Shown one piece after another: positions 9,209 through 55,700 of a DNA stretch of 64,000 nucleotides; position 1 is the first letter of the stretch; each line of letters opens with the position of its first letter. Source of the stretch: Mya arenaria (Eukaryota > Mollusca > Bivalvia > Myida > Myidae); NCBI RefSeq assembly GCF_026914265.1, contig NC_069135.1, positions 2,559,001 to 2,623,000 of the forward strand, written 5' to 3'. The translations under genes were made by a program, and so were the position numbers. The notes beneath the pieces are model-generated. The model was given only the letters and a program-made list of their open reading frames with translations. It was not told the DNA's origin and made no database searches.

Positions 9209-12200
9209 ATGAAACTCAAAGATCTTAAATACATGTATATCACATATGTATTTTGTGTTGGTGAGTTATTCAAATTACATGTAAACTATGTAGGAATATG
9301 CATGAAAAGGAATCGTTTATAGATTTTATTTTTGCATTTTTTTGTCGCTTGGGTTCCAGCAGGGACCGGTAAGGTTAATAGGTTCCTGGTTCCAGACTGG
9401 TCTTACAGCATTTGTGAGTCTTATGAAAAAAATCAGGTTAAAGTTTAAAATTGGTAATACCTTTTGGCTTGTAAACGTAATTTCACCAAAATGTCACTCA
9501 CCATTTAAAATGCAATATGTCGATGATATGTGAAAAACACATTAACATGCATTGATCTATTTTTCATAATATTTACTATTATAGATGATCACAACTGTAA
9601 TGGTATTGTTTAGATCAATGATTTCCATACTGTCCTTATTGAGTAAGAACAGTTTGTGTATGTGATAGCGTACATGCATTTTGCTAAATGGTGTGTCTTT
9701 TACAAGTAATCGAAACTGTTCTAACTTTTTAAGCATTTTGGATTTGTAAAAGAAATGAATCACGTGTCGGTGATATCATGATTTCATTGGTTAATTTTGT
9801 ATTTAGATTAGTGTGGAAGTTATGATAGCGGGAGATTTTGATTTAAAATATGATGGAATGAAAAATAACTCTGACTTACTGACTGTTTTATGTCCAATTT
9901 CTACATGACAGAATTTGGAAAGACGAGACCAGTGATAAATTTCTCTATTTGGCCCCAAAACACACTTAGAACAGTTTGGAATTCAAGCGACATTTTGTTT
10001 TAAACTTTGTTATAATATATTTCTTTAACATACTTTTAATAGCAACTGGAAGATACTCACTTCCACAGAATTTGTAATGTTTATCATAAGCTCATACAAT
10101 TTTAAACAGCGTTTCCAACGGTTATCGGCAATATCGAATATTTCATATTGCATTTTTCAACTTCTGTTCTGAACCTCATTTAAACACGTGATGATTTTTT
10201 TTATAATTCCTACAAACATTTTGTTCACACCTCACAATAATCTCTTTATTTCTATGTCCGACTCATAAAAGTGAACGTGTCCCTGTAAGCGTGAACGAGT
10301 CACTTACGTCCCTTAGAACGTGAACGAATTCCTTAGAACGTGAACGAGTCCGTTAAACGTGAACGAGTCTCTTTAAACGTGAACGAGTCTCTTTAAACGT
10401 GAACGAGTCTATTGAATAATGAACGAGTTCCTTAAAATTTGAACGTGAACTAGTCATTTGAAATGTGAACGATTCTCTTTGGAAGGGAACGAGTCCCTTA
10501 AAATATTAATGAGTCCCTTAAAACGTAAACGAGTCCATTTGAACGTGAACGAGTCCCTTAAAATGATCGAGTCCCTCAAAACGTGAAGGAGTCCCTCAAA
10601 ACGTGAAGGAGTCCCTTAAAACGTGAAGGAGTCCCTCAAAACGTGAAGGAGTCCCTCAAGACGTGAAGGAGTCCCGTAAAACGTGAAGGAGTCCCTTAAA
10701 ACGTGAACGAGTAACATTAACCACACTTTCTAAATTGTAAAACGGCATATTGCATTGTAATACTTATGATAATTATTTATTAAAACAATTGAAGGCAAGA
10801 TAAACTTGTTCTTTTAAAACATTCGTTGCGTTAGTTGAGCTCATGTCACCGCTAGTAATGAAAGTCATTTTCTCATAAACATTCCTTTCTTATAATTAGC
10901 ATTTGATATTTTCAATGGGATTATGTGTTTACTCCCATCAAGTTGAAGTCTGCGCAGATAATATGATAGCGGATGGAAGCTATTTTCGACCGACAAGCCA
11001 CAAGTCGAGGTCACGTGTACATCACGGGGAACTTATTACGTTTACGTTCAACGTCACTTTGAATACGTCTAACATAGCCGGGATCAGCGAAACTGGAAAC
11101 GTATCCTTTGTCATTTGGGCAACGAATATGGAGGTATGAAAAATAATGCAGTTTTTAATGAATGAGTACAGATTAATTATTACATTTCATCAGTTGAAAA
11201 ACGCATTCAAGTTCTTAAAATTTATACATTTGTGATAAAGTTGATGGGTGATGAATGTGTTTAAAGTAAATTTATAAAATTGTATCCCAACGGTTGAGTT
11301 CATAAGTTTATACTATTGTCTTTTCTGTCCGATTGCGACGAACACTGCAAGTTTATTGTTTATAATAATGCAGTTTAACCAGTATTAGTGTTCATTCTGA
11401 GAGGCTATGAGGAAGTGGCCTTTGTGGGAATCGAACCAACAACATTTTGGATGAAAGGCGAACCCCTATACCACAAGACCACTCTCATCCTATATTAGTT
11501 GAGTTACATTGGTTGTATGGGTGAGAATGAAAATATGGTTGAGTGTATTAATAGTATAGGTGGGAATGAAAATATGGTTGAGTGTATTGATGGCATGGGT
11601 GGGAATGGAAATATGGTTGATTGCATTGATGGTATGGGTGAGAATGAAATTATGGTTGAGTGTATTGATGGTATGGATGAGAATGAAATTATGGTTGATT
11701 GCATTGATGCTATGGGTGGGAATGGAAATATGGTTGATTGCATTGATGGTATGGGTGGGAATGGAAATATGGTTGATTGCATTGATGGTATGGGTGGGAA
11801 TAAAATATGGTTGAGTGCATTGATGGTATGGGTGGAAATGAAAATATGGTTGAGTGCATTGATGGTATGGGTAAGAATAAAAATATGATTAAGTGCATTG
11901 ATGGTCTGGGTGGTAATGAAAATATGGTTGCTTGCAATAACCATATTTAATAATGGGAATGCAATAACGGTTGAGTAAATTGATGGTATTGATGAAATTG
12001 AATTCATGGTTGAGTACATTGATGGTATTATTGGGGATAAAAGCATGGTCGAGTACACTCGTGCCATGGCTGAGACTGAGAGCAATGTTAAAGAAGTATT
12101 TTCTTGGTAGATGATACAGAAGAGTCAGATAATTGAATACCATGAGCTACTGACATCTCCAAATGGCACCGTGCTGGAACTGGAAGGTTATGATGCCTTC

Positions 12201-15200: not shown

Positions 15201-18200
15201 GTTGGCAGGCACGTTTGTGACATATACGTTTTACCTTACAAAGAATACGTGAATTGCGCAAAATCATACCATACAATTAAAATGAGTTTTCCAAAATAAA
15301 GAGTTTGTATTAATGTTATATATTTCAGACTTCGGTGAACCAACAGCTTTGATTGATGCCACGAATGCTCGAATATTTTACTGCAGCAATACGACCAGGG
15401 AAAGGTGACGTTTAGAAAAGCACGCGTGTAGAAACACTGCAAACTGCAACTTTGCAACACCATAGCTTTATATAGTAAACTATTAAGTGTTAGGCCTAAA
15501 TTTGACCACTGAGTATTTAGTAGTATTCAAATGTTCCATTGCATATATTCTTATTCAAAATCATTATATTAAAAAAAAATATTACAGATACAAAGGTCAT
15601 GGTGGGAACTGTTTTGCAGAAATTCGGCTCGGTCAAAACGTCACCAGACGGGGTAAGACAAATGTAAACTTATGTTAGTATGCCATCAGGCGGAGTCAGA
15701 TGATTGTATGCTAGTACGAACATTACCAGACCGTTAGTAAGGCGATTGTATATTATACTAGTATATGTCAGGATATCACCAGACCGGGTACGGCGATTGT
15801 ACACTAGTATATGTCAGGATGTCACCAGACCAGGTGAGGCGATTATATAACAGCATATGTCAGGATGTCACCAGACCAGGTGAGGTAAGTGTATAACAGT
15901 TTATGTCAGGATATCACCAGACCAGGTGAGGCGAGTGTATAACAGTATATGTCAGGATATCACCAGACCAGGTGAGGCGAGTGTATAACAGTATATGTTA
16001 GAATGTCACCAGCCGGGGTAAGGCGATTGTATAACAGTATATGTCAGGATGTCACCAGACCAGGTGAGGCGATTGTATACTTGTATATGTTAGAATATCA
16101 CCAGACCAGGTGAGGCGAGTGTATACTTGTATATGTTAGAATATCACCAGACCAGGTGAGGCGAGTGTATACTTGTATATGTTAGAATGTCACCAGACAG
16201 GGTAAGGCGATTGTATACTAGTATATGTCAGGATGTCACCAGACCAGGTGAGGCGAGTGTATACTAGTATACATGTATGTTAGAATGTCACCAGACCAGG
16301 TGAGGCGAGTGTATAACAGTATATGTCAGGATGTCACCAGACGGGGTAAGGCGATTGTATACTAGTATATGTCAGGATATCACCAAACCAGGTGAGGTCA
16401 TTGTATAACAGTATATGTCAGGATGTCACCAGACCAGGTGAGGCGAGTATATAACAGTATATGTCAGGATGTCACCAGACCAGGTGAGGCGAGTGTATAA
16501 CAGTATATGTTAGAATGTCACCAGCCGGGGTAAGGCGATTGTATACTATTATATGTCAGGATGTCACCAGACCAGGTGAGGCGAGTGTATAACAGTATAT
16601 GCTAGAATGTCACCAGACCAGGTGAGGCCATTGTATACTAGTATATGTCAGGATGTCACCAGACCAGGTGAGGCGATTGTATAACAGTATATGTTAGAAT
16701 GTCACCAGACGGGGTAAGGCGATTGTATAACAGTATATGTCAGGATGTCACCAGACCAGGTGAGGTGATTGTATAACAGTATATGTTAGAATGTCACCAG
16801 ACGGGGTAAGGCGATTGTATAACAGTATATGTCAGGATGTCACCAGACGGGGTAAGGCGAGTGTATAACAGTATATGCTAGAATATCACCAGACGGGGTA
16901 AGGCGAGTGTATAACAGTATATGTCAGGATATCACCAGACCAGGTGAGGCGATTGTATAACAGTATATGCTAGAATATCACCAGACGGGGTAAGGCGAGT
17001 GTATAACAGTATATGTCAGGATGTCACCAGACCAGGTGAGGCAAGTGTATAACAGTATATGCTAGAATGTCACCAGACCAGGTGAGGCGATTGTATACTA
17101 GTATATGTCAGGATGTCACCAGACCAGGTGAGGCGAGTGTATAACAGTATATGTCAGGATATCACCAGACCAGGTGAGGCGATTGTATAACAGTATATGT
17201 CAGGATGTCACCAGACGGGGTAAGGCGATTGTATAACAGTATATGTCAGGATGTCACCAGACGGGGTAAGGCGATTGTATAACAGTATATGTCAGGATAT
17301 CACCAGACCAGGTGAGGCGATTGTATAACCGTATATGTTAGAATGTCACCAGACGGGGTAAGGCGATTGTATACTAATATATGTCAGGATATCACCAGAC
17401 CAGGTGAGGCGATTGTATAACCGTATATGTTAGAATGTCACCAGACGGGGTAAGGCGATTGTATACTAGTATATGTCAGGATGTCACCAAACCAGGTGAG
17501 GCGATTGTATAACAGTATATGTTAGAATGTCACCAGACCAGGTGAGGCGAGTGTATAACAGTATATGTTAGAATGTCACCAGACCAGGTGAGGCGAGTGT
17601 ATAACAGTATATGTTAGAATGTCACCAGACCAGGTGAGGCGATTGTATAACAGTATATGTTAGAATGTCACCAGACCAGGTGAGGCGATTGTATAACAGT
17701 ATATGTTAGAATGTCACCAGACCAGGTGAGGCGAGTGTATAACAGTATATGTCAGGATGTCACCAGACCAGGTGAGGCGATTGTATAACAGTATATGTTA
17801 GAATGTCACCAGACCAGGTGAGGCGAGTGTATAACAGTATATGTTAGAATGTCACCAAACCAGGTGAGGCGATTGTATAACAGTATATGTTAGAATGTCA
17901 CCAGACCAGGTGAGGCGAGTGTATAACAGTATATGTTAGAATGTCACCAAACCAGGTGAGGCGATTGTATAACAGTATATGTTAGAATGTCACCAGACCA
18001 GGTGAGGCGAGTGTATAACAGTATATGTCAGGATGTCACCAAACCAGGTGAGGCCATTGTATACTAGTATATGTCAGGATATCACCAGACCAGGTGAGGC
18101 GATTGTATAACAGTATATGTTAGAATGTCACCAGACGGGGTAAGGCGATTGTATAACAGTATATGTCAGGATGTCACCAGACCAGGTGAGGTGATTGTAT

Positions 18201-19352
18201 ACTAGTATATGTCAGGATGACACCAAACCAGGTGAGGCGATGGTATAACAGTACATGTTAGAATCTCACCAGACGGGGTAAGGCGATTGTATACTAGTAT
18301 ATGTCAGAATGTCACCAGACAGGTAAGGTGATTGTATACTAGTATGTGTCAGAATGTCACCAGACCGGGTAAGGCGATTGTATACTTGTATATATCAGAA
18401 TGACACAAGACGGGTAAGGCGATTGTATACTAGTATGTGTCAGAATGTCACAAGACGGGAAAGGCGATTGTATACTAGTATGTGTCAGGATGTCACCAGA
18501 CCGGTAAGGCGATTGTATACTACAATATACCAGTGTATATCAGAATGTCACCAGCCCGGATAAGGCGATTGTATACTAGTATGTGTCAGAATGTCACCAG
18601 TCGGGTTAAGTTGATTGTATACTTATATGTATTCAAGGTTTCCAGGTCGTTGAAGATGATTGTATACAGGTTTATATCCGAACGCTTCGCCGTCTTACGC
18701 CGTATGGATAGTTGTTTATGCCTGACGGGTTAAGGCGACGGTATACTAGTAGATATTAGAATGTGACCACACATGATAAGGCGATTGACACTAGTATTTG
18801 CCCGAGGGTTACCAGACGGGGTAAAATGATTGTAAGCTTGTTTAAGAACAGACAAAATTTTGCGTTTTCTGCGTTTGTGAAAACGACATCAGACGGAGTT
18901 TAACAACTGTTTACTTAAGTTAAAACATCACCAGACGAAGTAAGATGATTGTTCACCTGTATATTTTATGTCGTTTATTTGAAGACGAAACGTGTTATCA
19001 AACCTAAATGTTAAAGTCTGACTTACACATTCTGCGATCAAAATGTAAATTAATCTTAATTCAATATATGAAATCAGTCTATTCGTATATTGGTAAATCA
19101 GCTGCCTTTTGTTTCCATTTCCCAGCGCTATCGCCTATCCTTGGGACGCTGGTTGGGCTGCAGACCAGCACCGGTCACGTGTTCGGGATCTCCAGTAATG
19201 GGTTAGCCTATATGACGTCACGGGATTTCGGAGTCACATGGTTCAGCGTTTCACCGGGGTTCGTGACGTCAGCAATGAAGCGGAGAGACTTCATAAAGGC
19301 CGTCGTGGTTGACGTCAACCAGTTAACCGCTTATCTTTATCGCGAAACTTAA
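9209..19352 (+). CDS. Unrecognised secreted or cell-surface glycoprotein (13 exons, 683 residues)
   Basis: Exons: 9209-9260, 10943-11133, 12111-12227, 12500-12584, 12789-13064, 13244-13429, 13619-13895, 14061-14247, 14606-14792, 15083-15208, 15329-15404, 15588-15652 and 19126-19352. Their phases join without conflict to 2052 bases. Exon 1 (MKLKDLKYMYITYVFC) looks like a signal peptide; its link to exon 2 rests on phase only, and 10958 is an alternative exon 2 start. The body is rich in N-glycosylation sequons (NVT, NTS, NGT, NNT, NAS, NLT), acidic loops and alternating beta-like segments. A Cys-rich stretch follows (ACKCSDDRTC, CAGCTKQWKC). The last exon contains TGHVFGISSNGLAYMTSRDF. No transmembrane segment was seen, so it is probably secreted. 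I recall similar uncharacterised mollusc proteins but no function. The intron after 15208 needs a GC donor and the exon ending at 14792 has a weak donor (GTTTTT). A 46-bp array fills the last intron. Confidence 0.75.
10268..10722. repeat. ~20-bp tandem repeat
   Basis: An array of cttaaaacgtgaacgagtcc-type units of about 17-20 bases. The left half is diverged and variable in length; the right half (10560-10700) is nearly uniform at 20 bases with gaagga in place of gaacga. It lies in the first intron of the glycoprotein gene, ending about 220 bases before the predicted exon 2. Confidence 0.9.
11395..11492 (-). mobile_element. tRNA-derived SINE-like sequence
   Basis: The minus strand shows a 7-bp acceptor-like stem (GTGGTCT with AGGCCAC, one G-T pair), an A box near TGTGGTATAGGGG and a B box GGTTCGATTCC. 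The anticodon arm does not form a clear 5-bp stem, so it is probably a SINE head or a decayed tRNA rather than an active gene. It lies in the glycoprotein intron just left of the 39-bp array. Confidence 0.5.
11505..12060. repeat. 39-bp tandem repeat
   Basis: Units built from ggtatgggtgggaatgaaaa and tatggttgagtgcattgat, with spacing of 39 bases. The array is uniform from about 11560 to 11870, then diverges until about 12060, some 50 bases before the exon at 12111. Because 39 is a multiple of three, it produces long frames on both strands; these sit inside an intron and are not genes. Confidence 0.9.
14347..14473 (+). pseudogene. Exon-like block that does not fit the reading frame
   Basis: A good acceptor (cggcttgcag) is followed by GC-rich DNA. 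One frame gives SANLTLSDFQRYVARARP and IVSHQEAPMLTYIAPG, similar in character to the rest of the glycoprotein. That frame needs an incoming phase of 2, but the preceding exon ends in phase 0, and no donor returns it to phase 0 for the exon at 14606. Skipping it joins the neighbours in frame. It may be a lost exon, an assembly indel or an alternative exon. Confidence 0.4.
15640..18830. repeat. 46-bp minisatellite that repeats a 5' splice site
   Basis: About 69 units by length, each 46 bases. The unit core is gtcaccagacggggtaagg or gtcaccagaccaggtgagg, followed by a linker like cgattgtataacagtatatg. The first core is the real exon-intron junction of the glycoprotein exon ending at 15652: gtcaccagacggggtaag, 18 bases identical. 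Units next to the exon (15660-15790) and at the far right (18600-18830) are diverged; the middle is homogeneous. The period is not a multiple of three, so no long frame results. It occupies most of the last intron. Confidence 0.93.
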
Positions 19353-19678: not shown

Positions 19679-21543
19679 TCAACGACGCTTCTTTGAGGGT
19701 TTCCCGGAGCTCTTGTTTGTGCTGTCTACATGTCTCTGAACAGCGACTAGTTTCCGAACAGCGTCAAATATATTAAGACTCGGCACGACGATCCATATCA
19801 TGTTGAGGAAGAAGAAATAGAACCAGAAGTGGAGGGGATGGCCGTATTCGGAGTGCCGGAAGTTCTCTAGAATCTCCGTGGAGAAGTACAGGGTGTCCCC
19901 GTACAGCTGGCAGATGGAGACGGCCAGCTGCAACACGTATCGCCAACCAGACATGCCCGGCACAAGGAAGGCGGTTGCCGTGAGGAGGCAGAGCGGGCCG
20001 TCCACCCAGGCGGTGATGGACTCCATGGCGACCATGCACGTCTCACCGCTGGAATTGGAAGCTTTGTTTAATCTATCATTGAGCATTTATAATCTGGAAA
20101 CAGACGATTATAAGTTTTTATGCCGAGTACAAAGGTGTACATCACATAAAGGTTTTGGGTGGTCTGGGGGTATTGATACCCCTATATATAGACCACAGAC
20201 CACCCAAAACCTTTATGATAGGAGTATCAATACTTCCAGACCACCCAAAACCTTTATGTGCTCTACACATTTAGTCGAGTAAGTCTCGGCGAGTACTTTG
20301 AAACTTTATTCAAAAATCGTGCAAAGTCCTGCATGCAATACAGGATACATACTCAGATAAAAAACAAAACAAATGAACAATGGATAACTATATAACTCGA
20401 ACATAAATTAACGCGAAATCTCAATTAATACGGTTCTGGGATAATCTAAGGATAATATATTATACTTACGAGACGTATCTGCTGTCACCTTGGCCGTATT
20501 CTTTCCCTGGAAACAAATATTCGTAAATTGAGCAAAGACACGTACATGCCGCCTCTTTAAGTTATATACTAAAAATGATGCAATATATTTGGTAAAAACG
20601 TGGATTCCACAGTGGCTTAAGATTAGGTGGGCGAATTAGATATTAGTGCCTTAATGGCACTCTTGCTATGAACCTTAAATCAGGTAAAGCATGATATTTG
20701 ATCTTCTTCTTCGTCTTCTTTTTCTTCTTCTCCTTTCGTTGTGAGGAACAGTCTTTTTTTCAGGGAGATTGGCAAATTTTACGAAAGAAGGTTTTATCTG
20801 ATTTGGGTTCAAAAAGCATTTATATTTTTAAATTCATTTCCTGTTTACGAAAATGCAAAAATCTTCCTTAAAATAACTGAAATCACCACAAAACCACACG
20901 AGAGTGTTGATCGGGTAGGACTGAATATCTTGACATAAAATAAAGTTATTTTGCTAAAAGACATTTCTGTTAAAATGTACATGCTTTTTGAATGAAATTT
21001 TTTATTCAAAAAGCATGTACATTTTAACGGACATGTCTTTTAGCAAAAATAACTTTATTTAATGTCAAGATATTCAGTCCTACCCGCGAAAATCTGAGAA
21101 AATCTTATTCCATAAAAGTGGCTAAACTCCTAATAACATCTACTGTAGAATGATCTTTTTAAACATAATGTTTTGGTCCTTCAAACTAATGTTTGAACTG
21201 TGGAAGGCCCTTAGTAGTTTTGAAATGTACTACATGTTAATGTACATATAATATACTCACACATCTGCGCGAGGTAGGTGTCTTCCCCGGCCAGGGTGCG
21301 GTGGTAGAGGCTAAAGTACCCCTCCAGGATGGAATGAATCAGCCCGCACGTGACGAACCAGCATACCTTCACACGCACACCTAGGCACCGGCCCCTCGTT
21401 CCCAACCATAGCAACACGTTCAACACTGCCACCAAGCCGAAAAACAGTCCTAATAATTCCTCAATACTGGTTATGTTAGGCTTATAGTGAGGAAGATGTG
21501 TGTCCCTCGGGAAATAAGGATGATTTATTGCACCGTCCGCCAT
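19679..21543 (-). CDS. EBP: Emopamil-binding protein (3-beta-hydroxysteroid delta8-delta7 isomerase)
   Basis: Three minus-strand exons: 21261-21543, 20470-20506 and 19679-20048. Phases 1 and 2 match, giving 229 residues against 230 in the human protein. The start at 21543 (MADGAINHPYFP) has A at -3 and G at +4. The family is a multi-pass ER membrane EXPERA-domain enzyme that shifts the sterol double bond from C8 to C7 in cholesterol-type synthesis. Visible hallmarks are CGLIHSILEGYFSLYH with the conserved His and Glu, WKEYGQGDSRYV across the 37-base middle exon, VAMESITAWVDGPL with the second conserved Glu, and YGDTLYFSTE plus GHPLHFWFYFFFLNMIWIV in the last helices. The basic tail ends KKRR, suiting ER retention. 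It is convergent with the glycoprotein gene. Both introns carry or adjoin hairpin-forming repeats. Confidence 0.95.
20135..20268. repeat. Inverted repeat (hairpin) in EBP intron
   Basis: cacataaaggttttgggtgg plus tctggg..gtattgatac (20143-20179) is matched in reverse complement by gtatcaatacttccagacc and acccaaaacctttatgtg (20224-20260). A third partial copy (gaccacccaaaaccttta) lies between. Weaker pairing extends the arms to 20135 and 20268. It may be a small fold-back MITE. Confidence 0.85.
20912..21086. repeat. ~175-bp near-perfect palindrome in EBP intron
   Basis: The left arm starts cgggtaggactgaatatc and ends acatgctttttgaat. The right arm is its reverse complement, ending gatattcagtcctacccg, with a loop of about 10 bases (gaaatttttt). 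Arms are about 80 bases with few mismatches. The transcript would form a long stem in EBP intron 1. Confidence 0.9.
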
Positions 21544-28183: not shown

Positions 28184-31100
28184 TTTGTTTCCTGTGCAAC
28201 AGTAAACCATTCATCATGGCAGGTAACGTGGTAACACTTATAATTCCACCATATGTAATAGCTGTATCGTTATGAGAATATGAACACTAAGCAAGTACAC
28301 TCCATTGTGGGAAAGTGCTTTCATAAGTAGTTTACCATCTTCCAGTCCAATCCTATATTTTGATATTGTATATGACCTTGCATTCTTTGTATGTTTCTTC
28401 CAAAAATAAATATATGTTTAAATCAAGTAAGCACATTATGATAATATGCTATTATAATAATTGTATATGATTCCTCTGTCAAGAACCGTCCCTGACACAT
28501 GAATCCACTTAACACCAGTCTTTGAGTTGATAACCAAATGGACTAAGAAATCATATAAGCCCTTAATTGTTGCAATCAATAGCTCTTGGTCCCTCATTTC
28601 ATTCTTACTATACCGTCGAAGGCGTGTGACTACGTAACTCTCTGTTAATTTAAACATATTGTTGCAGTAGAACTGCGTAATGTTCATTCTAACCATATCG
28701 CTGCAGTTGTAGAACTACGTAATTATATATTTGTTCTTTCTATCCATATCGTTGCAGTTTAAGGACTACATAATGTTCTTTCTAACTATATCGTTGCAGT
28801 GATATGACTACGTTATGTTCGTTCTAACCATACAGTTGTTGTTGTTGTAGGACTACGTAATGTTCATTCTAACCATATCGCGGCCGCTGTAGGACTACGT
28901 AATGTTCATTCCAACCATATCGTTGCAGTTGTAGGACTACGTAATGTTCATTCCAACCATATCGTTGCAGTTGTAGGACTACGTAATGTTCATTCCAACC
29001 ATATCGTTGCAGTTGTAGGACTACGTAATGTTCGTTCTAACCATACAGTTGTTTTCGTTGTAGGACTACGTAATGTTCATTCTAACCATATCGCGGCCGC
29101 TGTAGGACTACGTAATGTTCATTCCAACCATATCGTTGCAGTTGTAGGACTACGTAATGTTCATTCCAACCATATCGTTGCAGTTGTAGGACTACGTAAT
29201 GTTCATTCTAACCATATCGTTGCAGTTGTAGGACTACGTAATGTTCATTCCAACCATATCGTTGCAGTTGTAGGACAACGTAATGTTCAATCTAACCATA
29301 TCGTTGCTGTTGTAGGACTACGTAATGTTCATTCTAACCATATCGTTGCAGTTGTAGGATTACGTAATGTTCATTCCAACCATATAGTTGCAGTTGTAGG
29401 ACTACGTAATGTTCATTCCAACCATATCGTTGTAGTTGTAGGACTACGTAATGTTCATTCTAACCATATCGTTGCAGTTGTAGGACAACGTAATGTTCAT
29501 TCTAACCATATCGTTGCAGTTGTAGGACTACGTAATGTTCATTCTTACCATATCGTTGCAGCTGTAGGACAACGTAATGTTCATTCTAACCATATCGTTG
29601 CAGTTGTAGGACTACGTAATGTTCATTCTAACCATGTCGTTGCAGTTGTAGGACTACGTAATGTTCATTCTAACCATGTCGTTGTAGTTGTAGGACAACG
29701 TAATGTTCATTCTAACCATATCGTTTTAGTTGTAGGACTACGTAATGTTCATTCTAACCATATCGTTGCAACTGTAGGACAACGTAATATTCATTCTAAC
29801 CATGTCGTTGCAGTTGTAGGACTACGTAATGTTCATTCTAACCATGTCGTTGTAGTTGTAGGACTACGTAATGTTCATTCTAACCATGTTGTTGTAGTTG
29901 TAGGACTACGTAATGTTCATTCTAACCATACCGTTGCAGTTGTAGGACTACGTAATGTTCATTCCAACCATATCGTTGTAGTTGTAGGACTACGTAATGT
30001 TCATTCCAACCATATCGTTGTAGTTGTAGGACTACGTAATGTTCATTCCAACCATATCGCGACCGCTGTAGGACTACGTAATGTTCATTCTAACCATATC
30101 GTTGCAGTTGTAGGACTACGTAATGTTCATTCTTACCATATCGTTGTAGTTGTAGGACTACGTAATGTTCATTCTTACCATATCGTTGTAGTTGTAGGAC
30201 TACGTAATGTTCATTCTAACCATATCGCGGCCGTTGTAGGACTACGCAATGTTCTTTCTAACCATATCGTTGTAGGACTACGTAATGTTCATTCTAACCA
30301 TATCGTTGCAGTTGTTGGACTACGTAATGTTCATTCTAACCATATCGTTGCAGTTGTAGGACAACGTAATGTTAATTCTAACCATATCGTTGTAGTTGTA
30401 GGACTACGTAATGTTAATTCTAACCATATCGCGGCCGCTGTAGGACTACGTAATATTTATTCCAACCATATCGTTGTAGTTGTAGGACTACGTAATGTTC
30501 ATTCTAACCATATCGTTGCCGTTGTAGGACAACGTAATGTTAATTCTAACCATATCGTTGTAGTTGTAGGACTACGTAATGTTCATTCCAACCATATCGT
30601 TGCAGTTGTAGGACTACGTAATGTTCATTCCAACCATATCGTTGCAGTTGTAGGACTACGTTATGTTCATTCCAACCATATCGTTGCAAGTGTAGGACAA
30701 CTTAATGTTCATTCTAACCATATCGTTGTAGATGTAGGACAACGTAATGTTCATTCTAACCATATCGTTGCAGTTGTAGGACTACGTTATGTTCATTCTA
30801 ACCATATCGTTGCAGTTGTAGGACTACGTAATGTTCATTCTAACTATATCGTTGCAGTTGTAGGACTACGTAATATTTATTCCAACCATATCGTTGCAGT
30901 TGTAGGACTACGTAATGTTCATTCCAACCATATCGTTGTAGTTGTAGGACTACGTAATGTTCATTCCAACCATATCGTTGCTGTTGTAGGACTACGTAAT
31001 GTTCATTCTAACCATATCGTTGCAGTTGTAGGACTACGTAATGTTCATTCCAACCATATCGTTGCAGTTGTAGGACTACGTTATGTTCATTCTAACCATA

Positions 31101-34100
31101 TCGTTGCAAGTGTAGGACAACTTAATGTTCATTCTAACCATATCGTTGTAGTTGTAGGACAACGTAATGTTCATTCTAACCATATCGTTGTAGTTGTAGG
31201 ACAACGTAATGTTCATTCTAACCATATCGTTGCAGTTGTAGGACTACGTAATGTTCATTCTAACCATATCGTTGCAGTTGTAGGACTACGTAATGTTCAT
31301 TCTAACCATATCGTTGCAGTTGTAGGACTACGTAATGTTCATTCCAACCATATAGTTGCAGTTGTAGGACTAAGTAATGTTCATTCCAACCATATCGTTG
31401 TAGTTGTAGGACTACGTAATGTTCATTCTAACCATATCGTTGCAGTTGTAGGACTACGTAATGTTCATTCCAACCATATCGTTGCAGTTGTAGGACTACG
31501 TAATGTTCATTCCAACCATATCGTTGTAGTTGTAGGACTACGTAATGTTTATTCTAACCATATCGTTGCAGTTGTAGGACTACGTAATGTTCATTCTAAC
31601 CATATCGTTGTAGTTGTTGGACTACGTAATGTTCATTCTAACCATATCGTTGCAGTTGTAGGACTACGTAATGTTCATTCTAACAATATCGTTGCAGTTG
31701 TAGGACAACGTAATGTTCATTCTAACAATATCGTTGCAGTTGTAGGACAACGTAATGTTCATTCTAACCATATCGTTGCAGTTGTAGGACAACGTAATGT
31801 TCATTCTAACCATATCGTTGCAGTTGTAGGACAACGTAATGTTCATTCTAACCATGTCGTTGCAGTTGTAGGACTACGTAATGTTCATTCTAACCATGTC
31901 GTTGCAGTTGTAGGACTACGTAATGTTCATTCTAACCATATCGTTTTAGTTGTAGGACTACGTAATGTTCATTCTAACCATATCGTTGCAGCTGTTGGAC
32001 AACGTAATATTCATTCTAACCATGTCGTTACAGTTGTAGGACTACGTAATGTTCATTCTAACCATGTCGTTGTAGTTGTAGGACTACGTAATGTTCATTC
32101 TAACCATGTTGTTGTAGTTGTAGGACTACGTAATGTTCATTCTAACCATATCGTTCAGTTGTAGGACTACGTAATGTTCATTCCAACCATATCGTTGTAG
32201 TTGTAGGACTACGTAATGTTCATTCTAACCATATCGCGACCGCTGTAGGACTACGTAATGTTCATTCTAACCATATCGTTGCAGTTGTAGGACTACGTAA
32301 TGTTCATTCTTACCATATCGTTGTAGTTGTAGGACTACGTAATGTTCATTCTAACCATATCGTTGCAGTTTTAGGACTACGTAATGTTCATTCCAACCAT
32401 ATCGTTGTAGTTGTAGGACTACGTAATGTTCATTCTAACCATATCGCGACCGCTGTAGGACTACGTAATGTTCATTCTAACCATATCGTTGCAGTTGTAG
32501 GACTACGTAATGTTCATTCTTACCATATCGTTGTAGTTGTAGGACTACGTAATGTTCATTCTAACCATATCGCGGCCGTTGTAGGACTACGCAATGTTCT
32601 TTCTAACCATATCGTTGTAGGACTACGTAATGTTCATTCTAACCATATCGTTGTAGTTGTTGGACTACGTAATGTTCATTCTAACCATATCGTTGCCATT
32701 GTAGGACAACGTAATGTTAATTCTAACCATATCGTTGTAGTTGTAGGACTACGTAATGTTAATTCTAACCATATCGCGGCCGCTGTAGGACTACGTAATA
32801 TTAATTCCAACCATATCGTTGTAGTTGTAGGACTACGTAATGTTCATTCCAACCATATCGCGACCGCTGTAGGACTACGTAATGTTCATTCTAACCATAT
32901 CGTTGCAGTTGTAGGACTACGTAATGTTCATTCTTACCATATCGTTGTAGTTGTAGGACTACGTAATGTTCATTCTAACCATATCGTTGCAGTTTTAGGA
33001 CTACGTAATGTTCATTCCAACCATATCGTTGTAGTTGTAGGACTACGTAATGTTCATTCTAACCATATCGCGACCGCTGTAGGACTACGTAATGTTCATT
33101 CTAACCATATCGTTGCAGTTGTAGGACTACGTAATGTTCATTCTTACCATATCGTTGTAGTTGTAGGACTACGTAATGTTCATTCTAACCATATCGCGGC
33201 CGTTGTAGGACTACGCAATGTTCTTTCTAACCATATCGTTGTAGGACTACGTAATGTTCATTCTAACCATATCGTTGTAGTTGTTGGACTACGTAATGTT
33301 CATTCTAACCATATCGTTGCCATTGTAGGACAACGTAATGTTAATTCTAACCATATCGTTGTAGTTGTAGGACTACGTAATGTTAATTCTAACCATATCG
33401 CGGCCGCTGTAGGACTACGTAATATTAATTCTTACCATATCGTTGTAGTTGTAGGACTACGTAATGTTCATTCTAACCATATCGTTGCCGTTGTTGGACA
33501 ACGTAATGTTAATTCTAACCATATCGTTGTAGTTGTAGGACTACGTAATGTTCATTCTAACCATATCGCGGCCGCTGTAGGACTACGTAATGTTCATTCT
33601 AACCATATCGTTGTAGTTGTAGGACTACGTAATGTTCATTCTAACCATATCGCTGCCGCTGTAGGACTACGTAATATTAATTCTAACCATATCGTTGTAG
33701 TTGTAGGACTACGTAATGTTCATTCCAACCATATCGCGGCCGCTGTAGGACTACGTAATGTTCATTCTAACCATATCGTTGTAGCTGTAGGACTACGTAA
33801 TGTTCATTCTTACCATATCGTAGCCGTTGTAGGCCTACGTAATGTTCATTCTAACCATATCGTTGCCGTTGTAGGACTACGTAATGTTTTTTCTAACCAT
33901 ATCGCGGCCGCTGTAGGACTACGTAATGTTCATTCTAACCATAACGTTGTAGTTGTAGGACTACGTAATGTTCATTCTAACCATATCGCGGCCGCTGTAG
34001 GACTACGTAATGTTAATTCAAACCATATCGTTGTAGTTGTAGGACTACGTAATGTTCATTCTAACCATATCGCGGCCGCTGTAGGCCTACGTAATGTTCA

Positions 34101-37100
34101 TTCTAACCATATCGTTGCCGTTGTAGGACTACGTAATGTTCATTCTAACCATATCGCGGCCGCTGTAGGACTACGTAATGTTAATTCTAACCATATCGTT
34201 GTAGTTGTAGGACTACGTAATGTTCATTCTAACCATATCGTTGCTGTTGTAGGACTACGTAATGTTCATTCTAACCATATCGTTGCAGTTGTAGGACTAC
34301 GTAATGTTAATTCAAACCATATCGTTGCAGTTGTATGACTACGTTATGTTCATTCTAACCATATCGTTGCAGTTGTAGGACTACGTTATGTTCATTCTAA
34401 CCATATCGTTGCAGTTGTAGGACTACGTAATGATTATTCTAACCATATCGTTGCAGTTGTAGGACTACGTAATGTTCATTCTAACCATATCGTTGCAAAT
34501 GTAGGACTACGTTATGGTCATTCTAACCATATCGTTGCAGTTGTAGGACTACGTTATGTTCATTCTAACCATATCGTTGCAATTGTAGGACTCCGTAAAA
34601 TGAAGAAGTACAACTGGAAGGACAGTAACATGGCGCTGTTCGGCAGCGACCTCGAGAGGCAGGTCAAAAGTAAGTAATCTCGCTGACCTTCCCAATTCAC
34701 GTTGTGAGCAGGAAGTATTTCTATGGAGTCTTATATCTGCTGTTTCATATTTTCTCCTTTTTTGCAGTGAAAATGTGAAAACACGCCAAGTTGAAGGGCG
34801 AGAATGCGAAAATGAGCCAATGGCAGGGCAAAATTGTACCACTTTAATATTATTTCGCATTTTCCCCCTGCACCTTGGCGGGTTTTCGCATTTTCGCAGT
34901 GAAATGGCAGAAATCGGCAACCATACTTTTGTTTTCATATTTGTTTTAAATTTTACTTAATTGTTTTTTCTTGTTCATTCATTAGTGTATTCTCGGTTGG
35001 AAAATACTGGTTATTAATGCAGCTTACGGTGACGACAGTAGATACACATTCAAACTTTTATTATCCTTTGTTACCGTGATATCCTTTGTATATAATGTTG
35101 TTGACATGGTCTATTAACTTATGTTGTTTTTTTATATAACTCATGTATAATGTTTCGATGTTTAAACATTGCATGCAGAAATAAATGTATCTATATATAT
35201 GCGTAATCTTAAAGAGGCATCGGCTCTGGGGGAGCCCGCCTGGAAGGAAGCGGGCACCAAGCCGGGACTTCAGATCTGGAGGATTGTGGTGAGTGCATAG
35301 CAAGGATAGCCAACTATAGTCGCGTATATTATCTTCAGTGAAGCAAACATAAATAATGTTTAGAAACAAATGAAGACATGTACGAATGATTTACTTACAT
35401 TCATGTACACGTTAACAAGTTGGCAAACTTGTATACCTACGACAATCACATTAACAATGGTGTATTACCTATTGTCTGACAAACAATCACATGAATTGCC
35501 CAACAGTTGTTTCAGACTAATCATCAACACTGCCAATTTTCAAGTATCAAACGTAAGTCTTTGCCAAGCTGCCGGTCAAATGTAGCATATGTGCCTTACA
35601 ACTTTATTACATTGTCTCAACACGACGGATTGTTTTTGTATGGTAGGGCGTTAGGTAATTCCGAGTACTAGGGTCTACTTTCCAATCGGTATTTAAACCA
35701 TATTGGGCTGACTTATTTATTTCTTTTTTTGTCACCTCAGAAATTCCAAGTGACTGAGTGGCCCAAGGAGGACTACGGGAAATTCTTCAACGGCGACTCT
35801 TACATTATCCTCAACGTACGATAAGTTGTCATTTGTAATACCGACTAATATTCCATTTATTCATAAATAAAGTTATTGTTTGTTTTCCTTTGAAAAAAAA
35901 CACACACATGAATAGTACAACTGCATACAGAATATTATATATTCGTTTAAATCATGTTGAAAAAGTACTGAATGTTTACGTTCAAACTTTAAATTTTAAT
36001 ACAGACCGAATCACATGTACTTGAACGCATGAAACCATTTGATATTGCTAGATAATTACTCTAACACATAAATTCTGCGGAGGAAAAGGCCTTTACTTCC
36101 TTGCTATTCACACCCTTGATGTAAACATATCCATTTCCACAGACTTATACAGAGGGCGGGTCGGCGGACCTGAAGTACGATGTTCACTTCTGGATCGGCA
36201 GTGAAAGCTCCCAGGTAATAGCTCAGGAATGTCCGATATAAGTTTCACCTCGATCTAACTTTCTTATGCCAGAAAAAGTTCGGCGCATGTTTTATCTGTA
36301 AAAATATTCCAATGCAGCTTGTGAGATTAATACAGTACCAGGGTGTTAATAAAAACATCCCTCTGGCATTCACCAATAGTGAAGTTTAGGCTACTTGCTG
36401 TATCTATTTCAGTTTTCGTCTTTATTTTATGAAAAAAGTAATATAAAAACATATAAACTATGGTTTGCCAAGGGCTTGAGTGTTATTTGATTGAGTTCTC
36501 AACATTTTTGATAAACAAATGCACATAATTAAATATTCTACTAGAGCCAAGATTGTATGAACGTTCCGTAATATCGCCCATACTTATGATTAAAATTCCA
36601 TTGTTAACCATTGTCTTAAAAAACAAAGTGATTCTTGTTTCCCCTGTGCTCTGTGTACGTGTTTTTGTTAAAAAAATACATACGCCTTTATGACTGAACA
36701 TCATTGGTTAATGAATTGGTATCATTATCGGAGTTGCTTAAACCGACCAATGTTCCACATTAGTTCATAACAAGGACACACTCAGTGTGTGTATACCACG
36801 TGATAAATTGCGTCATAAATGCTACGTCGGAAGGCAATATTTTGATTTGAAAAAAGACTTTAAACAAAGATAACTTCACTATTTATTCACCATTTTAAAT
36901 GAAACATAGCGCAGTCTATGCTGCTTACGTAGCCCCACCTTCGGTCTTTTACCAGAATTTGATCGAGAGTTTAGTTTCTTAAGACACACTACGGCCGTCT
37001 GACGGAGCACTGTCTAAACATTATTTTGGAAACAGGTTTTTCGAAGTGTTTGATGAAACTAATGACCTCATCAAATTTTGGTAATAAAACAAATGCGGGG

Positions 37101-43100: not shown

Positions 43101-43885
43101 GGGTAAATGGATGATGCATTGAAGTGTACCTAAATGCATTTAGAAATCGACATGATTACGGACCATGGACATCTCGTTCAATAAAATCTGCTCTTTTTAA
43201 CCCCCCCCCCCCCCCCCCCCCCCCCATCTTATGCAGTTAGACTTACGAACTATAGTGTGATTAACTTTCTGAAGAACCCACATTTTTGGTTGAACCTTTT
43301 GATATTTATTCAATAGTTCTCGAAATTGGCCTTCATACATAATAATTATATATCTCCATTCAAACAGCAAAAAAGGTTTGAGTTTAAATATCTTTTGTTA
43401 ATTTAAATGGGATTTTTCTGTTGTAAATTCAGTGGTATATATGAAAGGTCTTAACTTCTTTGAAATGTGAAAACAGTTGACAATAAGTTATTCGATCTTT
43501 TAAGAAAAGAAAATATTGACTTTGCACGGAAACTTAACAAAGCCAACGTTTTCCTTAAAAAGCTAAAATTCTACAATTTGAAATTTTGACATGTATGTTA
43601 CGATCAAAACTACGTTATGAAAAATATTTCCTCCCAATTCTATTACATACTATTGGAAGAAAAGGAGAAAAAGCCTTGATTCTGTATAATATAAATACGA
43701 AAAAATAGCTTCTACTACATTTTGCCTCTCAGTATCGAACGACATCTGAGCAAAAATAAACAAAGTTGCACTGTTTTAATGCTTTGCAGAACCATTGCAT
43801 GAAGACCAACAGGCCGTTCCTACCAATCCACGTGGTGAAAGAGGGTCGAAACTACGCTTCCCTCGACATCGCCCTCTCCGCATAG
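28184..43885 (+). CDS. Gelsolin-like actin-severing protein, three gelsolin repeats (365 residues)
   Basis: Exon 1 has 32 bases of 5' UTR (28184-28215) and ATG at 28216. Coding exons: 28216-28222, 34589-34669, 35215-35288, 35741-35815, 36143-36214, 37322-37449, 37747-37855, 39703-39813, 40215-40301, 40627-40709, 42560-42638, 42963-43058 and 43790-43885. All phases agree, giving 1098 bases with stop. The protein starts [16 protein letters not shown]. Repeat G1 (about residues 45-145) shows [36 protein letters not shown] and [21 protein letters not shown]2 (about 160-245) has [18 protein letters not shown] and [21 protein letters not shown]3 (about 275-360) has [17 protein letters not shown]. 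Length and layout match the roughly 366-residue annelid and mollusc gelsolin-like proteins and severin/CapG. By family it is a cytosolic, calcium-controlled actin filament severing and capping protein; no secretion signal is present. Oddity: the first coding exon has 7 bases and intron 1 is mostly a 42-bp array that repeats the exon 2 acceptor. Confidence 0.95.
28660..34588. repeat. 42-bp minisatellite that repeats a 3' splice site
   Basis: About 140 units by length, each 42 bases. A unit runs ggactacgtaatgttcattc, then taaccatatcgttgcagtt, then gta. The last unit runs without a gap into the real acceptor and start of gelsolin exon 2 (gttgcaattgtag then GACTCCGTAAAATG). Every typical unit therefore carries CTAAC, about 22 bases of spacer, gtag and an exon-like GACTACGTAATG. 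Variants include gcggccgctgtag, gcgaccgctgtag and a unit six bases shorter. The left end (28600-28850) is degenerate. Larger blocks are themselves duplicated. Confidence 0.95.
36783..37243. mobile_element. ~460-bp MITE with ~50-bp inverted ends
   Basis: Left end gtgtgtgtataccacgtgat, continuing to gctacgtcggaaggca. The right end is tgccttccgacgtagcatg, continuing to atcacgtggtatacacacac. The ends are about 90 percent complementary by eye. The interior has no coding capacity. It sits in the gelsolin intron between exons 36143-36214 and 37322-37449, ending about 80 bases before the next exon. Confidence 0.85.
37945..39055. mobile_element. Dispersed repeat with internal ~108-bp tandem units
   Basis: The left part contains two or three diverged copies of a segment with ttcaaattatgcccctgg and ggtctctaccaagat. 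From about 38385 to 39010 a unit of about 108 bases recurs six times. It contains gctacaacaatgaaattt, ggaccatgtgtacagttttg, aaaacaaatatcaatgttgt and gactgtgaccttttgacct. The right end reads gccagtagagcataggatc and tcatgggcctcttgttt. I associate this with bivalve dispersed repeats but cannot name a family. It lies in a gelsolin intron and has no protein of its own. Confidence 0.7.
43201..43225. repeat. Poly-C run (25 bases)
   Basis: A homopolymer of 25 C in the last gelsolin intron. The exact length is prone to sequencing error. Confidence 0.9.
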
Positions 43886-44654: not shown

Positions 44655-47600
44655 TAACCCGACCGTTAGCGTACTTTATACCCCGTCTGGCACCGTACTT
44701 TATACCCCGACCTGTACTGTAGTATATACCTCAACAGGCATCGTACCGAATAGCCTGACCGGCATTATTTGTTATACAACGACCGACACCGTAGTTTATA
44801 CCCCGACCGGTACTGTACTTTGTTCAAAGACCGCTAGTGTACTTCATGCCCTGACTGGTCCCGTACAGCGACAGATACAGTTCTGTATACCCTGACAAAT
44901 ACCGTACTGTATACCCCGACAAATACCGTACTGTATACCCCGACCGGTACCGTACTATATACCCCGACAAATACCGTACTGTATACCCCGACCGGTACCG
45001 TACTGTATACCCTGACAAATACCGTACTGTATACACTGACAAATACCGTACTGTATACACTGACAAATACCGTACTGTATACACTGACAAATACCGTAAT
45101 GTATACCCTGACACATACCGTACTGTATACCCCGACCGGTACCGTACTGTATACCCCGAAAAATACCGTACTGTTAACACTGACAAATACCGTACTGTAT
45201 ACCCCGACAAATACCGCACTGTATACACTGACAATAACCGTACTGTATACACTGACACATACCGTACTGTATACCCAGACAAATACCGTACTGTATACCC
45301 TGACAAATACCGTACTGTATACCCTGACAAATACCGAACTGTATACCCCGATCGGTACCGTACTGTATACACTGACAAATACCGTACTGTATACACCGAC
45401 CGGTACCGCACTGTATACACTGACAAATACCGTACTGTATACACTGACAAATACCGTACTGTATACCCAGACAAATACCGTACTGTATACCCTGACAAAT
45501 ACCGTACTGTATACCCTGACAAATACCGAACTGTATACCCCGACCGGTACCGTACCTTATACACTGACAAATACCGTACTGTATACACCGACCGGTACCG
45601 CACTGTATACACTGACGAATACCGTACTGTATACCCAGACAAATACCGTACTGTATACCTGACAAATACCGTACTGTATACCCTGACAAATACCGAACTG
45701 TATACCCCGACCGGTACCATACTGTATACACTGACAAATACCGTACTGTATACACCGACCGCTACCGTACTGTATACCCTGACAATTACTGTACTGTATA
45801 CACCGGCCGGTAACGTATTGTGTATACTGACAAATACCGTACTGTACACACTGACATATACCGTACTGTATACTCTGACAAATACTGTACTGTATACCCT
45901 GACACATACCGTACTGTATACCCCGACCGGTACCGTACTGTATACTCCGACAAATACCGTACTGTATACACTGACAAATACCGTACTGTATACCCCGACA
46001 AATACCGCACTGTATACACTGACAAATACCGTACAGTCTACACTGACAAATACCGTACTGTATACCCAGACAAATACCGTACTGTATACCCTGACAAATA
46101 CCGTACTGTATACATTGACACATACCGTACTGTATACCCAGACTAATACCGTACTGTATACCATGACAAATACCGTACTGTATACCCTGACAAATACCGA
46201 ACTGTATACCCCGACTGGTACCGTACTGTATACACTGACAAATACCGTACTGTATACACCGACCGGTATCGCGCTGTATACACTGACAAATACCGTACTG
46301 TTTACCCAGACAAATACCGTACTGTATACCCTGACAAATACCGTACTGTATACCCTGACAAATACCGAACTGTATACCCCGACCGGTACCGTACTGTATA
46401 CACTGACAAATACCGTACTGTATACACCGACCGCTACCGTACTGTATACCCTGACAATTACTGTACTGTATACAACGGCCGGTACCGTACTGTGTATACT
46501 GACAAATACCGTACTGTACACACTGACAAATACCGTACTGTATACCCTGACAAATACTGTACTTTATACACTGACAAATACCGTACTGTATACACCGACC
46601 GGTACCGTGCTGTATACACCGACTGGTACCGTACTGTACACAATGACAAATACCATACTGTATACACCGACCGGTACCGTACTGTATACCCTAACAAATA
46701 CTGTACTGTATACCCCGACCGGTACCGTACTGTACACCCTGACTGGAACCGTACTGTTTACTCTGACCGATACCGTACTGTATACCCTGACAAATACCGT
46801 TCTGCCTAAACCGGCCGGTACCGTACTGTATACAGCGACCGGTACCGTACTGTTTAAACCGACCGGTACCGTACTGTATACCCTGACAAACACCGTACTG
46901 TATACCCCGACCAGTTGCATACTGTATACACTGACAAATACCGTACCATTTACCCCGTTCGGTACCGTACTGTTTATTCTGACTGGTACCGTACTGTATA
47001 CCCCGACCGGTACCGTACTGTTAACTTCTACCGGTACCGTACTGTTTACTCCGACCGATACCGTTCTGTATACCCCGAACGGTACCTTACTATTTACCCT
47101 GACAGTACCTTACTGTTTACCCTGACCGGTACCGTACTGTTTACTCCGACCGATACCGTGCTGTATACCCCGACCGGTACCATACTGTTTACTCTGACCG
47201 GAACCGTACAATATACCCCGACCGGTACCGTACTGTACACCCTGATCGGTACCGTACTGTATACCCTGACAAATACCGTACTGTTTACCCCGACTGGTAC
47301 CGTACTGTACACCCCGACCGGTACAGTACTGTACACCCCGATCGGTACCGTACTGTACACCCGACCGATACCATACTGTATACCCCTACCGGTACCGTTA
47401 TGTTTACTCTGACCGATACCGTACTGTTTACTCCGACCGGTACCGTACTGTTTACCCCGACCGGTACCGTATTGTATACACCGACCGATACCTTACTGTA
47501 TACACTTCCGTAGTATATACCATGACCGTACTTCACCTTGACTTGTGTCGTACTTAAAACCTCGACTGGTACCATACGTTATACCCTGACCAGAATCGTA

Positions 47601-52700: not shown

Positions 52701-55700
52701 AACAACAACAACAACAACCGTCTGATTGTCATTGTTGTGCACTTCTAGAAGCTCTTAGTGTTTTGTTTCAGCCACATGTTAAAAAACTCTTTGCGCAATC
52801 GCACCAGCATCGTTACACACCACCGGTACCCCAAAGTGTCCTGTTCCATAACTATATTATATAAGTGCAATTTTAACAGAGCTTGGCGACTGTACTTTTG
52901 TAAATATTTTGGTAAAAATATTTTTTGGCAAAACATGTAAAAAGTCCCATTTTATCAGACTGATCATCGTAAAAGCGGCGAATGACAATCTTGTTTAGTT
53001 GATATAAAATGTCTTTATATGATAACTCTTTCCTTGGCCCTCCAGTTTGGACATGGCATACATGATCCGGGCCCTGCAGCGAGAGCGGGACGGCAGCGCC
53101 CTCTACTTGAGTTCCATCAGACCGGAGACCAAGGGATTTCTCCTTGAACGCTACCAGGTAACAACTTGATACACGTTTTCCAAATGTGTAAAAAGACAAC
53201 ATCAAAACACGGAAATATTAAAGTGATACTCTTATTCAAAATCAATACATACACATGTATAACAAAAATCAATTTTGACTGATAAACCTTTAACTACTTA
53301 CTAAATAATGCATTTATGGAAAATATTAATTACTGATAACAAGATAGTAACCGTGTATTTAATAGCAGAGAGCTCAAAAATATTAAATGATTGGTGAATG
53401 CTAAAAGATTTACTGTGGTCTACTATAGTCTCATAAGGTAGAAATATCGTGTTTTGTGCTCATTTCTTTCAAATTGAACTCGGTATTCTTCATAAGAACT
53501 ATTGTTTTAGACACTTATTCATTTTTGGAATTTTAAAACAATATTATTAATTGTGGTAAATATTATCTGGGAGTAAGTGTGCATCTTTAAAGGTTTTGGT
53601 AGTTTAATATCTTAAACAAATTTAGCAAATGCGTCTTCTTCAATGTGGGCTTCTTTAGCTATAATCATTGTCATTATTCATTGTCCTCTTTGATATTTAT
53701 AATTTGTTATATTTGACAATTATCATTGTCCTTATTGGCAATACTCATTCTCCTATTTGGCAATTATCATCTCCTATTTGGTTTAAATCTTTCCCCTATT
53801 TGGTAATAATCATTGTCCTATCTGGCAGTCATTATTTTCCTCTCTGCCATTTATCATTTTCTTGGTTGGTAATAATCATTGTTCACGTTGGTAATATTCA
53901 TTGTCCTCTTTGCGTATTTTCTGCACCCTTTCGTACCAATTAAAATAATAAAAAAACTGGTAGTTTTGATTTTTCTATCGCAGGACACGGACGAGGCTGT
54001 ACAGACGCTCCCCTACTGGCCGTCCTCCCTTAGCAGCACGCGTTCAGAGTTCGATTCCAGTGAGACCTTTCTCAAGACTCTGAACAGACACAGGTTAGCG
54101 ACGACATTCGTATGTCTGATATTCTTATGGCATTTAGGTTAGGGCAAACAACATGTGCTAAGTGCTCGACTTAAGTGAATTCTTCTTCAAGACTCTTAGC
54201 GTGCACCCAAAATTAACCATCAAGGTTTCTATGGTAATTGCTCATGGTCAATAGCGGTGCCCGAAATGACTTGAGAATGCTCTGAACAATGGATATGCGT
54301 GAATGTACAGATCAAAGCATTCAGTTTCGACCATAACTTCACTCGCATAACAGGGTAACATAAAAATGTTCTTTCTTGAGAACAAGATAGGTCTAACGGA
54401 ACTTTTTGACAAAGTCATTGTCATATTTTAAAAACTGCATTAATGGTTTAAGTTGACCTTTGGTTTCAAAACATGAGCGATTCCCTTTAAAATAGCCCAG
54501 AATGAATGTTGCAAACCGTAACACAAATACTATTGCGCTCAATCGCAGGTACGAGCTGGACACGCTGCAGGTGACGTTCCACGACGAGCTAATGACGTAC
54601 TCCGAGTGGATTGAGGTCTTCATCAAGTGGTTCTACAAGTCCATTACGGAGGCTAGGGCCGAAAAGGCGAGTATCGAGTTGTGTTTTAATATAATATGTC
54701 TCGATCAATATTGTTTTCAAAGATAATGGTGGTTAACGGTAACAGAGTCATAAAGCTTCATTTACAAATAGATACATATCACAAAATCAAAGATTAATTT
54801 TATTATTGCATGAAGTTTTCATCCGTTTGAGCGCTCTGATTTTGAAAATAAATAAAAGCAACTTCGACCAATACCGTCGTTTGGTCTTTAGGTGTTTTTC
54901 GATGTGTATTAAAATGTGCTGGGCGCTGTTATCAACGTTTAATACTGACAACTTAACAATTTGTCACCTACCATTTTTTTCTGAAAATAATTGTATTTCA
55001 TGTAATAAGTCCTGTATTTATCAGCAATTCTTGTGCAAAAAATTGCTGAACCTACAGAGTAATTAATGTTGAAGTAATAATTTGTAACTGGAAAATGGTA
55101 ACCCCTAGTGCTCTAGTGGTCTAGTTTTAACAAGTATTCGCCTCTCACTAAAATGGTTGCGGGTTGCATCCCCACCAGGAGTATTCTCGATATGCACACC
55201 AGTTCTGGTTTCTACTCAGGGAGTGATAAACTCGCAATGGAGCAATAAGAATATTTTGAACTAAAACATCTCACAGCGCATGATGCACTTTGATTAACAC
55301 ACTTACACATCCTTTATGCCAATAAAACATATTGAACGAATGGTACACGTGAAGGTTAAACATGCCTTGAAACATTTGACAAAGTGGTGCAGTTGTCTTT
55401 TAAATTGTTCTAACCTGATCTCAGTGGCATGTGTTCTAATGTTGATGGAATCTTTAGCTGTACAAAAAGAGAAAGCGCTAGATCAAAATGGTCAGCAACA
55501 GCAGTACAACATACATTCACATACACACAAGTACAGATGCTGAACTACAGAAATAGCACACATACTCAAGTACACATGTCGAATTACAGTAATAGCACAC
55601 ATACACAAGTAAACATGTCGAATTACAGTAATAGCACACATACACAAGTAAACATGTCAAATTACAGTAATAGCACACATACACAAGTAAACATGTCAAA

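Follow-up and report, generated by a model that had tools for sequence, protein, structure and literature searches.

The 42-bp tandem array in intron 1 of the Mya arenaria gelsolin gene is very probably a minisatellite that spans an intron/exon boundary, of the kind termed a 'mirage' in amphioxus, evolving neutrally and normally spliced around in the one haplotype read here. It lies in a window of 64,000 nucleotides (contig NC_069135.1, positions 2,559,001 to 2,623,000), the whole stretch of DNA that was analysed. The anatomy of the array, its homology across the splice site and its neutral pattern of substitution are all directly observed. Neither a coding role nor a selected splicing function has left any sign in the sequence.

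By homology the host gene is gelsolin-like. The joined translation of exons 1-4 matches fragmin and gelsolin chains of the PDB, with fragmin chain 7w4z_B as the best match (E 2.1e-19). PF00626 exceeds the Pfam cut-off in a 103-residue joined piece of the gene and, farther 3', in two read-through frames out of three, the third scoring below it, and the stop codon is read at 43883-43885. A run of 25 C (43201-43225) in an apparent intron of the gene is a possible weak spot of sequencing or assembly. The first-pass annotation had exon 1 ending in phase 1 at 28222, as is borne out, and had the array ending flush at the exon 2 acceptor. The array does reach the acceptor, between 34588 and 34589, but resemblance to the unit continues for about 10 nt into the exon.

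28216-28222, plus strand: ATGGCAG at the coding end of gelsolin exon 1, in phase 1, with GTAACG as the donor
28628-28763, plus strand: 5' margin of the 42-bp array, degenerate, within intron 1 (units 2-4 of the cyclic alignment)
28764-34588, plus strand: array core from TRF and cyclic alignment, 139 units that mostly combine a branch-point-like site and one or two AGs with about 10 bases resembling the exon
34589-34669, plus strand: gelsolin coding exon 2, 81 nt with a GTAAGT donor, sharing homology with the start of the unit over its first 10 nt

That such an array of acceptor-like units precedes exon 2 is confirmed by two methods. TRF places it at 28667-34598 (period 42, 141.3 copies, score 9398), and cyclic alignment resolves 139 core units within a whole array of 28628-34588. 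Unit counts refer to the core and leave out the degenerate alignment units 1-4 (28624-28763) and unit 144, which is the exon piece. Most core units are 42 bp long (133), with three of 36 bp, two of 45 bp and one of 41 bp. Their mean identity to the consensus is 94.5% (n=139, gaps scored as differences), 15 of the 139 are exact consensus copies, and the array as a whole is far beyond chance. A higher-order duplication occupies 32249-33412, where 13 consecutive units are identical at a 15-unit lag (32249 and 32873). This exact duplication marks internal turnover and, together with the divergent copies at the 28628-28763 edge, is a property of mirages. A 25-base piece of the unit, searched as a pattern against viral contigs, gave 0 matches.

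The unit holds both intron and exon bases of the real boundary, as mirage units do. Exon 2 opens with 10 nt of which 9 are identical to the unit (GACTACGTAA against GACTCCGTAA), and an equally good match is found elsewhere in the window at only 4 of 115,938 10-mers. When the real acceptor is taken from -30 to +10, the best unit agrees at 38 of 40 nt and 121 array sites agree at 34 or more, against a best score of 29/40 among 115,878 places outside. Across the 30 intronic positions, the other 138 core units differ from the real acceptor at one position in 29 cases, two in 31, three in 43 and four or more in 35; the comparison is ungapped, and a length other than 42 bp probably accounts for its six poorest rows (16-17 differences). 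The earlier view that the units nearly copy the real acceptor and share the phase of the exon is borne out, 103 of 138 differing at 1 to 3 positions. The statement that every unit carries CTAAC and an acceptor is true of most rather than all. CTAAC is present in 99/139 core units (108/139 match yTnAy) and the final AG in 131/139, many but not all units keeping a splice signal as in mirages. An earlier AG, six bases 5' of the final one, occurs in 99/139 (57 CAG, 42 TAG).

We infer that the direction of change was from exon to array. A 42-bp segment comprising the last ~30 nt of intron 1, with branch-point-like site and acceptor, and the first ~10-12 nt of exon 2 would have been duplicated in tandem, and slippage or unequal exchange would then have extended the array into the intron until it held about 140 copies. 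The converse, in which the array came first, acquired a splice site that was put to use and so supplied the present start of exon 2, is barely credible. It draws on the fact that the acceptor sequence is itself a copy of the unit. However, only about 10 exon nucleotides resemble the unit, and the exon 2 residues just past this array-like part align with the N terminus of fragmin (RKMKKYN against QKQKEYN), so that exon 2 looks older than the array.

The unit frame encodes 14 residues, as had been proposed and as translation of the units bears out, and continues from unit to unit and into gelsolin. The two interruptions previously seen by eye are real and end the two long frames of the array, 1118 aa (28808-32164) and 730 aa (32146-34338).

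32124-32164, plus strand: 41-bp unit, one base short, that interrupts the repeat reading frame (alignment and open reading frames)
34336-34338, plus strand: TGA in the repeat frame, where the G of a TAG acceptor is lost, bounding the stretch translatable into gelsolin
34373-34588, plus strand: the sole stretch whose AGs, nine in number, would join exon 1 to gelsolin in an open frame (exon starts 34373-34547, extensions of 42 to 216 nt)

The open frame had been offered as a sign of function, a view that the substitutions do not sustain. Only 1 of the 126 possible single changes to the unit creates a stop. The 43 distinct unit variants divide into 29 nonsynonymous, 13 synonymous and 1 stop, where 30.7 : 12.0 : 0.31 are expected without selection given the observed transition share. 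The long frame therefore needs no selection. Counted by cells, the variants are 201 nonsynonymous, 102 synonymous and 2 stop, and distinct changes fall at codon positions 1, 2 and 3 in numbers of 16, 14 and 13. No synonymous excess, as looked for in a protein-coding repeat, was found in the repeat frame of the 139 core units. Core indels have sizes of +3, -6 and -1, two of three keeping the frame, which are too few to judge. As a control, the 24-bp array at 44870-47503, which lies 3' of the gelsolin stop where no exon is seen, has frames of 756 aa on the plus strand and 579 aa on the minus strand. An open frame of this kind is not evidence of coding, as neutral drift would give it, and a coding repeat is rejected on the substitution spectrum. 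The repeat reads in frame only because its unit holds exon bases in their own phase, has a length that is a multiple of three and rarely has its frame closed by substitution. Pfam matches to the two array frames (DUF6231, Membrane_bind, MFS_MOT1) include no single passing stretch and are read as sums over repeats.

Gelsolin had been expected from any acceptor lying between the breaks and the exon. This does not hold: of the 260 intronic AGs in 28240-34588, 162 lie outside the frame of exon 2 and 89 keep that frame but run into a stop, so that the TGA at 34336 leaves only nine open. Leaky splicing to the nearest acceptors, at a low level, is plausible, since the units near-copy the real acceptor and share the exon phase. 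Each unit included through occasional use of these acceptors would insert 14 residues, and leaky retention of one unit, adding 14 residues, is possible on this basis. From acceptors upstream of the TGA, the resulting mRNA would be frame-shifted or contain a stop. That the last acceptors are used at a meaningful level, to give gelsolin with N-terminal 14-residue repeats in a number set by the acceptor chosen, is quite improbable. The nine open AGs and the 103 close units speak for such an isoform source, as does the human ABCA7 boundary VNTR, one unit of which can be retained through an internal splice site, a cryptic donor (PMC5954066). However, the last six units hold 10 changed cells, nine of them in the translatable stretch, and all nine are nonsynonymous; amphioxus mirages are suggested not to disturb regular splicing (PMC3087553, PMC3902484).

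The conservation of splice signals bears on a second functional proposal, in which 5' acceptors divert splicing towards transcript decay and array length tunes the level of gelsolin. Such a decoy or dosage device would be served by the 251 of 260 intronic AGs that yield out-of-frame or stop-containing mRNA, and the length of the ABCA7 VNTR is described as altering splicing (PMC5954066). Against this, the signals as a group are kept no better than other positions of the unit: the five splice-critical positions vary in 0, 31, 0, 6 and 2 units (mean 7.8), and the other 37 have a mean of 7.2 and a median of 3. No special protection is seen, and the device is very improbable. Thirteen unit positions are invariant, including the first C and the branch A of CTAAC (two of the five splice-critical positions) and 11 others. 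The AG kept in 131 of 139 units, together with the invariant C and branch A, would also fit weak selection. The sequence offers no positive evidence for decoy, buffer or isoform roles of the array.

Under the preferred reading of a neutral array that is spliced around, use of 34589 is probably set by exon definition, through the 81-nt exon and its GTAAGT donor. The last unit reads CAA where the earlier AG would stand, making the TAG the first AG past its branch-point-like site, and this change from CAG to CAA perhaps helps the choice of 34589. Exon 2 has a pyrimidine fraction of 0.625 at -20 to -5; exon 4 and an exon predicted at 19126 in an upstream gene each have 0.875. The array is a natural test case for the way in which a single acceptor is chosen from over 100 near-identical ones.

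The human CBS gene carries a 31-bp VNTR that is placed by exon 13/intron 13 numbering, and studies of its splicing exist. Its name, c.1444_1467+7, has the unit span coding bases to intron +7, much as the gelsolin unit spans its boundary, and several alleles are described (PMC2630376). It differs from the gelsolin array in lying on the donor side and in having 16-21 copies. Together with the amphioxus mirages and the ABCA7 VNTR, which likewise include or span a splice site, it sets aside the earlier belief that no comparable case had been described. The ABCA7 repeat is a 25-bp VNTR in intron 18 that opens with the two bases of the exon 18 donor and has about 427 units in its largest allele (PMC5954066). 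Both it and the gelsolin array are flush with an exon and include the splice site, and hundreds of units are possible in ABCA7. The ABCA7 VNTR, by contrast, is on the donor side and starts at the GT, the available description making no mention of exon bases, and its 25 bp are not a multiple of three. Both its polymorphism and an effect on splicing have been shown.

A close likeness is with the amphioxus mirages, minisatellite-like tandem duplications of an intron/exon boundary in Adh3 and the globins BflGb6 and BflGb9 (PMC3087553, PMC3902484), to which PGBD5 and TnC have been added (PMC3902484). Shared features are duplication of the boundary, splice signals in many units and edge copies outside homogenisation; mirages come as 3' and 5' types. 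Their units are of 10 to 160 bp, with BflGb6 haplotypes of 6 and 3 units, whereas the gelsolin array has about 140 copies of 42 bp, is in frame with its exon and belongs to another phylum. Mirage-type repeats have been proposed to feed the birth of introns (PMC3087553), a proposal for which the gelsolin array offers a natural test. The formation of new introns from tandem repeats at exon-intron boundaries has also been discussed for human genes (PMC2812944). A 27-bp intronic minisatellite is described in abalone, where the available text states no boundary overlap (PMC6905558), and a literature search that had most subscription journals outside its reach found no boundary-spanning minisatellite in a mollusc. 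The gelsolin array would extend such minisatellites from lancelets and human genes to a mollusc, with about 140 copies here and a second case nearby.

This second array appears to be of the boundary type as well, on the donor side of an exon in the neighbouring predicted gene.

15588-15652, plus strand: predicted exon of the upstream gene, ending GTCACCAGACGGG and followed by the donor GTAAGA, its frame continuing into the predicted exon at 19126
15653-18640, plus strand: second array of 46-bp units, each the end of the predicted exon plus donor (TRF core 15760-18600), the first units, to about 15787, degenerate

The 46-bp unit reads GTCACCAGACGGG followed by GTAAGG, or ends in CCAG followed by GTGAGG. 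Counting the real donor, the GT is kept in 62 of 65 units, and CAG followed by GTGAGG occurs 39 times. The 24 nt around the donor at 15652 agree with array copies at up to 21 positions, with 32 array sites at 18 or more and none at 18 or more among 121,210 places outside. A stop codon closes the exon predicted at 19126. No Pfam family scores above its cut-off for the upstream gene, the exons of which are a prediction. Ten Pfam matches inside the array contain no single passing stretch and are read as sums over repeats. By eye, relic-like copies of the 46-bp unit seem to run on to about 18960.

A broader proposal takes the two arrays as signs of a genome that repeatedly makes splice boundaries into large minisatellites, which would be tolerated as changes in copy number leave the boundary intact, the gelsolin array leaking in-frame acceptors to give a length-variable N terminus. 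As a whole this proposal is rather unlikely. Further large arrays of the window were inspected by eye without any contact with an exon being seen: the 24-bp array at 44870-47503, the 39-bp and 45-bp arrays at 55518-58389 and a 39-bp array at 11498-11930. The first of these has about 110 copies, lies 3' of the gelsolin gene and has degenerate copies on both sides. The 39-bp and 45-bp arrays stand upstream of an exon near 58534, where exons of a guanylate-cyclase-like gene (58534-60234) give NIT, HNOBA-end and cyclase matches. On the minus strand, an exon of an EXPERA/EBP-family gene is found at 19682-20083 (PF05241, E 1.2e-21).
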